In this document: positions 3,464 through 6,231 of the stretch, in pieces
Numbering within the stretch: position 1 is the first letter of the stretch
Layout: each line of letters begins with the position of its first letter
Source of the DNA: Candidatus Desantisbacteria bacterium CG1_02_38_46
GTDB lineage: Bacteria; Desantisbacteria; UBA1551; UBA1559
DNA length: 6,231 nt
Assembly: GCA_001871015.1 (NCBI GenBank)
Contig: MNUO01000082.1
Span: forward strand, 1-6,231
Direction of reading: 5' to 3'
Position numbers and translations under genes: made by a program
Notes under the pieces: generated by a model
Told to the model about the DNA's origin: nothing
Databases searched by the model: none
The model's input: only the letters and a program-made list of their open reading frames with translations

Positions 3464-3915
3464 GCCTCTATGAAAAGTTGGAACAGGATATGAAAGAGGC
3501 TTTGAGAAACAGGGAAGAGATAAGGCTTTCCACAATTAGATTTTTGCGCAGTCAAATAAAAAATCGCCAGATACATAAAAAATCACCCCTGACAGATGAA
3601 GAGATAATTGAAACTGTTCAGAGGGAAATTAATCAGCGCAGAGAAATTTTTCCCGCTCTTGAACGAGCTTCTCGCCAGGATTTGATAAAACAAACAAATG
3701 AAGAGATTGTGATATTGGAGGGTTATCTGCCTGCCCAGTTATCCCAGGAAGAATTAAAGCAAATTATTGACGAGGTTATTAAAGAGGTTGGTGCAGCTGG
3801 TCCGCGGGACATGGGGAAAGTAATGGGGATATTGATGCCAAGGGTTAAAGGAAAGACAGATGGCAAAGTTGTAAGCGAATTAGTCAAGGTACGCCTCAAT
3901 GAATGTAATAATTGA
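3460..3915 (+). CDS. yqeY: GatB/YqeY domain-containing protein
   Basis: This is a cytosolic protein of 151 residues, the usual YqeY length. It resembles the C-terminal tRNA-binding helical domain of the GatB subunit of Asp/Glu-tRNA amidotransferase. YqeY proteins lack the catalytic kinase part, and their precise role is not settled. Visible family features are an N-terminal helical stretch ([19 protein letters not shown]), [10 protein letters not shown] (86-95), DMGKVMG (117-123) and [13 protein letters not shown] (131-143). GGGAG (3449-3453) is 6 nt before the ATG, which overlaps the rpsU stop (ATGA). The 3' end overlaps the next gene by 17 nt. Close linkage to rpsU suggests a translation-related role. 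Confidence 0.92.
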
Positions 3916-4910: not shown

Positions 4911-5174
4911 TTTTCCACCAGCCAATTCCTTGAAAAGTTAGAGCATCAAGACTTTAAGGGGCGCAAGGAAAAGATTAAACTCAAGATTGCCGAATATGTC
5001 TATCCTCAATTAAAGAAAGAGCCTCGTTATGGCCTTAACATAAAAAAACTCCACGGTAAGTATAATGAAGTATGGAGATATCGCATTGGAGACTGGCGCT
5101 TTTTTTATTCCATTGACGAAAAAGAAAAAATAGTGTTTATGCTCACCGTTAGGAAAAGAGGAGAATTTTACTAG
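4911..5174 (+). pseudogene. RelE/ParE-type toxin lacking a start (likely 5'-broken)
   Basis: From the TTT after an in-frame TAA (4908-4910) to TAG 5172-5174 there are 87 codons with a clear RelE/ParE toxin pattern. FSTSQFLEKL forms the first strand end and helix. AEYVYPQLKKEP and GLNIKKLHGKYNEVWRYRIG (41-60) are followed by DWRFFYSIDEKEKIVFMLTV and a basic RKRGEFY end. This subgroup is normally about 90 residues, so only the first few are missing. There is no ATG, GTG or TTG at the beginning of the frame. The +2 frame just upstream reads RVLIIF up to the same point, so adding one T to the run at 4911-4914 would rejoin a plausible N-terminus. Even then no good start codon is visible. No antitoxin gene adjoins it. 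It is read as a decayed or frameshifted mRNA-interferase toxin, but a sequencing error or unusual start is possible. The 97 bases before it (4814-4910) hold no recognised gene. Confidence 0.7.
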
Positions 5175-5268: not shown

Positions 5269-5296
5269 TTGACAAAATTTTAAAATATAGTATAAT
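5269..5296 (+). promoter_or_regulatory. Consensus sigma-70 promoter of the RHH/PIN operon
   Basis: TTGACA (5269-5274) and TATAAT (5291-5296) are both perfect consensus hexamers, separated by 16 bp of AT-rich sequence. Transcription would start near 5303, leaving a short leader that includes the AAGGGGGTG ribosome binding site (5316-5324). Confidence 0.85.
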
Positions 5297-5297
5297 A

Positions 5298-5316
5298 ATA
5301 TTACAGATATATTACA
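5298..5316 (+). promoter_or_regulatory. Candidate antitoxin operator: two ATATTACA boxes
   Basis: ATATTACA occurs at 5298-5305 and again at 5309-5316, 11 bp apart start to start, about one helical turn. The pair sits right after the -10 box and over the predicted transcription start. Ribbon-helix-helix antitoxins commonly repress their own operon by binding tandem short sites spaced by a helical turn. The direct repeat is visible; the operator role is inferred. Confidence 0.4.
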
Positions 5317-5329
5317 AGGGGGTGATAAC

Positions 5330-5551
5330 ATGAGAAGTGCAATGTCAATAAGTTTACCGGAAAAATTGTTTAAAAAAGTCAAACAAGAAGGAAAAAAAGA
5401 AAACATTCCCTTAAGCGAGCTAGTCAGAAAAGCATTAAACGGATATTTTTTTATAACTGAATTTAGACAATTGCAACAGAGAGCACTAACTGAAATGGAG
5501 AAAAGGGGATTAAAATTAACCGACGAAGAAATATTCAGGAAGGTGTCTTGA
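5330..5551 (+). CDS. Ribbon-helix-helix (CopG/Arc-type) antitoxin
   Basis: This is a small DNA-binding protein of 73 residues. The N-terminal part MSISLPEKLFKKVKQ (5-19) gives the beta strand and first helix. LSELVRKALNGYF (29-41) gives the second helix of a ribbon-helix-helix fold. The charged C-terminal half (43-73) probably wraps around and blocks the partner toxin. It is expected to dimerise, bind the operon promoter and neutralise the PIN nuclease encoded next. The start at 5330 is chosen because AAGGGGGT ends 6 nt before it; Met5 (ATG 5342) has no ribosome binding site at proper distance. The stop overlaps the toxin start (TTGA). It has its own strong promoter and a likely autoregulatory operator upstream. 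The PIN-partner role rests on the gene order and the overlap. Confidence 0.85.
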   Translation: MRSAMSISLPEKLFKKVKQEGKKENIPLSELVRKALNGYFFITEFRQLQQRALTEMEKRGLKLTDEEIFRKVS

Positions 5552-5982
5552 AAATTTTATTTGACACAAATGTTTTAGTGGCAGGGTTTTTAAACAGGGG
5601 TACCTGCCGAGAAGTTATTTCAATTGCTTCAATTATTCATCAAGTTTACTATACAGATTTTATAATTACTGAACTACAAAATGTACTCAAGAATAAATTT
5701 AATATTCCTGAATTCCTGATAAAAGGATTTACCACACTCATTAAAAAGTATTTTAATATGGCAGAGACTGCCCCAGTAGTTCACCATGTCTGTCGTGATG
5801 GTTCTGACGACCAAATACTTGCTGATGCTCTATTTAACGAGATGGACCTGGTGGTAACTGGCGATACAGATATTTTAGAGTTAAAAACTTATCAAGGAAT
5901 TAAAATAATTTCTCCAAGGGAATTTTTCATACCTTCTCTTACAAAAGCCTACTTCGGCAAAAATTTTCTAATTTCACTTTAA
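5548..5982 (+). CDS. PIN-domain toxin (putative ribonuclease, COG1569-like)
   Basis: It is a predicted metal-dependent RNase toxin of 144 residues with a PIN fold. The acidic metal-site residues can be seen: Asp6 in FDTNVLVAG, Glu42 in ITELQNVL, Asp87/Asp88 in RDGSDDQILADAL, and Asp106/Asp108 in VTGDTDIL. IISPREFF (120-127) is the usual end of this subgroup; a further 17 residues follow. The start is TTG at 5548, which overlaps the antitoxin TGA as TTGA, with AGGAAGGTG (5537-5545) just upstream. No ATG exists before the essential FDTN motif, so TTG is well supported. The overlap and weaker start codon fit the usual scheme in which toxin synthesis depends on, and stays below, antitoxin synthesis. 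RNA target unknown. Confidence 0.9.
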   Translation: MKILFDTNVLVAGFLNRGTCREVISIASIIHQVYYTDFIITELQNVLKNKFNIPEFLIKGFTTLIKKYFNMAETAPVVHHVCRDGSDDQILADALFNEMDLVVTGDTDILELKTYQGIKIISPREFFIPSLTKAYFGKNFLISL

Positions 5983-5994
5983 AATTCATTTCAC

Positions 5995-6023
5995 TTGACA
6001 AATGTATGTTTTTTTGATATACT
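5995..6023 (+). promoter_or_regulatory. Sigma-70 promoter for the brnT gene, predicted leaderless
   Basis: TTGACA (5995-6000), a 17-bp spacer and TATACT (6018-6023) make a near-perfect promoter. The usual start point, about 7 nt after the -10 box, is 6030, which is the A of the brnT ATG. The sequence between the -10 box and the ATG (ATATTT) contains no ribosome binding site, which agrees with leaderless translation. Confidence 0.8.
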
Positions 6024-6029
6024 ATATTT

Positions 6030-6231
6030 ATGAAAATAGTATCTAAACTAATTTTCTTTGAGTGGGATAAAGGCAACATTGATAAAAACTTAATCAAACA
6101 TAATGTCACAAATAGAGAGATTGAAGAAGTTTTTGAAAACGATCCGAAATTTATTTTCAGAGATGAAAAACATTCCCAGGAAGAAGAAAGGTATGGCCTT
6201 TATGGCAAAACAAAAGCAGAGAGATTGCGCT
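6030..6231 (+). CDS. brnT: BrnT-family toxin, 3' end outside the window
   Basis: The first 67 codons are present and the frame is open to the edge. The pattern is that of BrnT, a RelE-like ribonuclease toxin normally of about 90-100 residues. It shows FFEWDKGN (9-16), NLIKHNV (20-26), the helix REIEEVFEN (29-37), then HSQEEERYGLYGKT (48-61). In the family these correspond to the FEWD start, the KHG turn, the helix ending in VF, and the xxxEERFxxxG core strand. The partner antitoxin BrnA normally follows downstream and would lie beyond the edge. The gene has its own promoter, no ribosome binding site and an apparently leaderless start. It is separated from the PIN gene by 47 nt that hold only this promoter. 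Confidence 0.85.
   Translation, partial: MKIVSKLIFFEWDKGNIDKNLIKHNVTNREIEEVFENDPKFIFRDEKHSQEEERYGLYGKTKAERLR

Follow-up and report, generated by a model that had tools for sequence, protein, structure and literature searches.

How toxin-first toxin-antitoxin (TA) operons regulate the ratio of toxin to antitoxin has been stated as not known (PMC5906591). The brnT toxin gene studied here, whose promoter runs almost into its start codon, raises the question of whether its message begins at the AUG itself and what such an arrangement would mean for that ratio. The window, i.e. the whole stretch of 6,231 nt that was analysed, is an entire contig of a 1.73-Mb genome in 133 contigs, and because of this the gene is incomplete, being cut off at base 6231 after 67 codons. 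These 67 residues alone score 39.2 bits against the Pfam profile BrnT_toxin (PF04365, formerly named DUF497), above the family cut-off of 34.5 (Table 1). The remainder of the gene was sought in the other contigs of the genome and no continuation was found; as the contig ends inside brnT, any brnA antitoxin gene of this copy would lie outside the assembly. A TGA at 6015-6017 closes the upstream frame, and no alternative ATG, GTG or TTG lies in frame ahead of the conserved FEWD motif, thus the ATG at 6030 is the only start of these types.

Table 1. Features of the brnT promoter region in the window
Feature	Position	Strand	Basis
-35 element TTGACA	5995..6000	+	Aligned relatives share a TTGA equally far from the palindrome
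Palindrome left arm GTATGT (consensus GTATAT)	6004..6009	+	One mismatch, N7 gap; consensus from relatives
Palindrome right arm ATATAC, overlapping the -10 box	6017..6022	+	Match to the consensus of relatives
-10 element TATACT, with TG before it at 6015-6016	6018..6023	+	Highest-scoring sigma-70 match within 100 nt upstream of brnT
Predicted transcription start, A of ATG	6030	+	7 nt past the end of the -10; 6-nt spacing commonest in relatives
brnT toxin gene	6030..6231	+	PF04365, E 8.8e-10; paralogues in the same genome

An earlier note on this DNA had placed a promoter TTGACA-17-TATACT in front of the gene, predicting that transcription begins at the A of the ATG without a ribosome binding site, and the sequence bears this layout out. 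The two elements, 17 nt apart, carry 11 of the 12 consensus bases in addition to the TG ahead of the -10, and only ATATTT separates TATACT from the ATG. Transcription usually starts 7 nt after the -10. As the -10 of brnT ends 6 nt before the ATG, transcription is predicted to start at 6030, on or beside the A of the ATG, giving a leaderless mRNA; here and in all relatives described below, starts were deduced by an E. coli-type promoter model applied across many phyla. In pairing with the anti-Shine-Dalgarno sequence, taken from -20 to -4, brnT scores +0.6 kcal/mol and the eight remaining genes of the window score -3.9 to -12.1 kcal/mol, so that the gene combines two marks of a leaderless message, an AUG start and no usable Shine-Dalgarno sequence (SD). 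The further claim that all other intact genes have a ribosome binding site holds as well, weakly in the case of the nucleoside hydrolase gene at 3899, which has the value of -3.9 kcal/mol.

What the earlier note missed is that the -10 box lies within a palindrome, GTATGT-N7-ATATAC (6004-6022), with one mismatch to the form GTATAT-N7-ATATAC. An operator-like palindrome overlapping the -35/-10 region is one mark of an autoregulated type II TA promoter. BrnA has a ribbon-helix-helix (RHH) domain and controls transcription of brnTA (PMC11980606). From this reported control and from its position, the palindrome is most likely the operator of the RHH antitoxin BrnA or of the BrnTA complex.

Both other brnT copies of the genome share the layout, with 6 and 11 nt between the -10 and the ATG. 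The first paralogue (L002), 78% identical and truncated, reads TTGACA-16-TATACT-6 nt-ATG and lacks an SD, while the second (L003), which is intact and followed by an antitoxin-like gene, reads TTGACA-16-TATAAT-11 nt-ATG, with a leader of about 5 nt. Repeats of the GGCAGGTCAGGACTAAAGTCCTGAGTTAC type are found at the start of the contig (window 1-90) and at 1700-1830 of L002, beside the truncated paralogue. As a genome-wide baseline, which consists of a single pattern search, the relaxed pattern TTGAYA-N16-18-TANNNT-N5-7-ATG has 25 matches in the 1.73-Mb genome and the reversed pattern 7; among the 20 matches that were read, only five begin a new frame of 60 codons or more, namely two brnT genes, an ABC-type ATPase gene and two related ATPase genes. 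Two related ATPase genes of about 390 codons in this genome (L320 and L321, with MRRTGKTSLIR and MRQVGKTTLMR) likewise show a near-consensus promoter, with its end 5-7 nt ahead of the ATG.

The comparison with brnT promoters of related genomes, which the earlier note had proposed, showed that the layout recurs. A subfamily profile yielded 80 brnT loci in genomes labelled Tectomicrobia, Hakubella, Acetothermia, Chloroflexi, Planctomycetota, Acidobacteria, Spirochaetes, Elusimicrobia, Bacteroidetes, several proteobacterial groups and others. The palindrome was counted in the 68 loci for which only a single ATG or GTG start is possible; these are related by descent and transfer, so the counts given here are not numbers of independent events. 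The palindrome is present in 65 of the 68, with the form GTATAT-N7-ATATAC (gap exactly 7) in 62, while shuffled upstream sequences contain it in 115/1360 cases with any gap of 4-11 allowed. Its right arm is the -10 box in the relatives as well and ends most often 6 nt before the ATG, although in a minority the palindrome lies 11-45 nt upstream of the start. Measured from the end of the -10 (TATACN), the distance to the start is 6 nt in 26/68 and 5-8 nt in 44/68 relatives. When the loci are aligned on the palindrome, TTGA at the -35 distance is conserved and little else, the bases between palindrome and ATG not being conserved. The start codon is ATG in 63/67 relatives. The base at -1 is a pyrimidine in 31/43, which is weak support since this is apparently common ahead of SD-led starts too. 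A Bacteroidota variant was considered in which the palindrome of three loci appeared to abut the ATG, with a TAnnTTTG box instead, this box lying 8 nt before the ATG in L159 and L160. It was dropped as evidence, because in a wider Bacteroidota set the palindrome mostly ends 6-9 nt before the ATG (16-17 nt in two) and the box is almost absent.

Promoter spacing and palindrome could be separated by looking beyond the subfamily. In 47/67 genes of the same BrnT subfamily the best sigma-70 promoter stops 4-9 nt short of the start codon, as it does in 27/48 other BrnT genes and in 24/35 HigB genes (11/16 and 13/19). The corresponding figures are 2/25 for PhdYefM antitoxins, 3/19 for HicA, 3/14 for gp49 and 5-8.5% for shuffles (single-start groups); the control groups comprise no more than 14 to 35 genes, with starts picked by rule rather than annotation and with loci clipped by contig ends excluded from the HicA, HigB, PhdYefM and gp49 counts. 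All BrnT genes together (74/115) differ from the pooled PhdYefM, HicA and gp49 genes (8/58) with a Fisher p of 1e-10. The palindrome with at most one mismatch is found in 52/67 genes of the subfamily versus 2/48 other BrnT genes. The palindrome is thus tied to the BrnT subfamily of the window, and the promoter spacing is common also to BrnT groups without it and to HigB. The higB genes (L214-L243, L348-L374) show the promoter-at-ATG geometry with differing upstream sequences, some with TTAACG-type repeats. It had been considered that every toxin-first family would have the leaderless layout, with more than 40% predicted beforehand for gp49. The 3/14 found for gp49 went against this prediction and HicA fails too, therefore the claim covers BrnT and HigB only.

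These comparisons bear on the most durable of the alternatives, which holds that autorepression is what was selected and that the promoter sits where it does as a by-product of an operator packed against the gene, the missing leader having no role of its own. The palindrome does contain the -10 and is the most conserved feature of the region, and the bases between it and the ATG are not conserved, which speaks for this alternative. Yet other BrnT subfamilies and HigB keep the same spacing with different upstream sequences. Moreover, PhdYefM antitoxin genes in the same genomes have an SD of -4 kcal/mol or stronger in 21/25 cases, against 5/67 for the BrnT subfamily, and their promoter lies mostly at least 16 nt upstream; packing is therefore not forced by autorepression as such. 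On balance, we find the by-product explanation rather unlikely.

The antitoxin gene of the relatives is organized differently from the toxin gene. A brnA-like frame was found in 58/80 loci, and the start chosen for it falls within the 3' end of brnT, at 4-50 nt from where the brnT stop codon ends. Within these same 58 loci an SD precedes brnA in 51 and brnT in 4 (Wilcoxon p 7e-11). Where several brnA starts were possible, the one with the best SD was taken, a choice that favours brnA, and the figures for single-candidate starts are therefore fairer (32/39 for brnA versus 3/39 for brnT). At the 3' end of brnT in L104-L183, the C-terminal codons (R-K-E-R..Y) overlap the SD of brnA, so that coding and ribosome-binding roles seem to be fused there.

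The geometry, the missing SD, the palindrome, their conservation and the SD of brnA in relatives can all be read from the DNA. Taking them together, we consider it likely that the region is the promoter-operator of a toxin-first brnTA operon, in which an autoregulated leaderless toxin cistron is followed by an SD-driven antitoxin cistron, with synthesis biased to the antitoxin. RNA polymerase would bind TTGACA/TATACT of brnT, and BrnA or BrnTA, judging from the place of the palindrome and the reported control of brnTA by BrnA, would occupy the palindrome and repress transcription. The message of brnT would begin at the AUG, and ribosomes would start on this 5'-terminal AUG without SD pairing, a mode of initiation known for leaderless messages (PMC3616915, PMC8630535). 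brnA would then be translated from its internal SD. One autorepressed message could in this way give low, separately tuned translation of the toxin and strong translation of the antitoxin, and the expression ratio would be expected to leave the antitoxin in excess.

The surroundings of the gene bear on another possible source of its message. Directly upstream, at 5269-5982 (+), a CopG-like antitoxin and a PIN_3 toxin form a module. Its promoter matches the consensus perfectly (TTGACA-16-TATAAT) and lies 33 nt from the ATG, and its SD is strong, an antitoxin-first contrast to the adjoining brnT. Just before this module, an 87-codon frame at 4911-5174 (+) matches ParE_toxin (PF05016, E 2.1e-6). 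Upstream of the domain, its open frame contains no ATG, GTG or TTG that could serve as a start, and the frame has the look of a decayed toxin gene. Farther away, an inverted repeat at 2336-2430 (GTCAGGTCTTGACAAATGACAAAT ... GTCATTTGTCAAGACCTGACACC) between pgk and tpiA has the appearance of a small mobile element. The stretch from the PIN gene to brnT (5982 to 6030) holds no predicted terminator, and thus read-through from the strong CopG-PIN promoter (5269-5296) could also yield a leadered message. It is nevertheless improbable that brnT is mainly read in this way and that its working message is leadered, since brnT has a near-consensus promoter of its own, the intergenic stretch offers no SD and the layout recurs in unrelated genomes. 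The earlier note had also connected the leaderless toxin with the neighbouring PIN toxin, through cleavage of leaders or of 16S rRNA ends. Nothing found in the analysis suggests such cleavage or a linkage of the two modules, and this connection was rejected as being without evidence.

A chance promoter match in AT-rich DNA before a decaying gene would suit a brnT frame cut by the contig end and a truncated paralogue (L002), but it is very improbable given the conservation of palindrome, spacing and SD lack across relatives and the paralogue L003, which is intact and precedes an antitoxin-like gene.

Perhaps the arrangement reaches further, a leaderless toxin combined with an SD-driven antitoxin being a general and selected way of setting the ratio in BrnT and HigB toxin-first operons, one that favours the toxin when SD-dependent initiation is impaired. 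We put this forward tentatively, as a possibility that may well fail. The layout itself predicts that drugs or stresses sparing leaderless messages shift the toxin-antitoxin balance. A conserved leaderless toxin together with a strong-SD antitoxin would offer a concrete and testable answer to the question of how toxin-first operons set their ratio (PMC5906591).

Leaderless TA genes have been met before. Kopfmann et al. (2016) described three DUF497/COG2929 toxins in Synechocystis 6803, among which sll1651 and sll1965 have a start-site distance of 0 and are called leader-less, while ssr0757 has 45 nt (PMC4963859). A third leaderless TA system of this organism is ssl7039, of RelE/gp49 type and paired with an HTH-Xre antitoxin. 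Here too the toxin comes first, and according to the authors all leaderless TA loci in Synechocystis have the reverse gene order (PMC4963859). Similar to brnT of the window, sll1651 and sll1965 encode BrnT-family toxins in toxin-first order (for our gene, brnA is seen in its relatives) with the start at the start codon, as predicted for our gene, and this mapping, along with the conservation in related brnT loci, supports the leaderless prediction well. That study concerned one species, with the start mapped, and no operator or comparative analysis was found in its text (PMC4963859); in our case the start is predicted rather than mapped, and the layout was followed across many phyla and linked with a palindrome. 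A leaderless BrnT in a single species is thus already known (PMC4963859). In the literature searched, BrnT and leaderless were named together in two reviews only, and no account of the layout's conservation across phyla or of its fusion with a palindrome was found. BrnT/BrnA of Brucella abortus (Heaton 2012, as cited in PMC11980606) is described there with the same toxin family, gene order and transcriptional control by an RHH antitoxin. Among the 37 TA pairs of M. tuberculosis that have a primary start site, 32 lack a leader (PMC3898074), and these are likewise TA operons starting at the start codon; however, leaderless genes make up a quarter of the total in that organism (PMC3898074), whereas the geometry is rare in the genome of the window. 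Finally, paaR2 of E. coli O157:H7 and lambda cI are autoregulated leaderless genes that start at the ATG, in a TA context (PMC8630535), with the difference that the leaderless gene there is the regulator, while in the brnT locus it is predicted to be the toxin.
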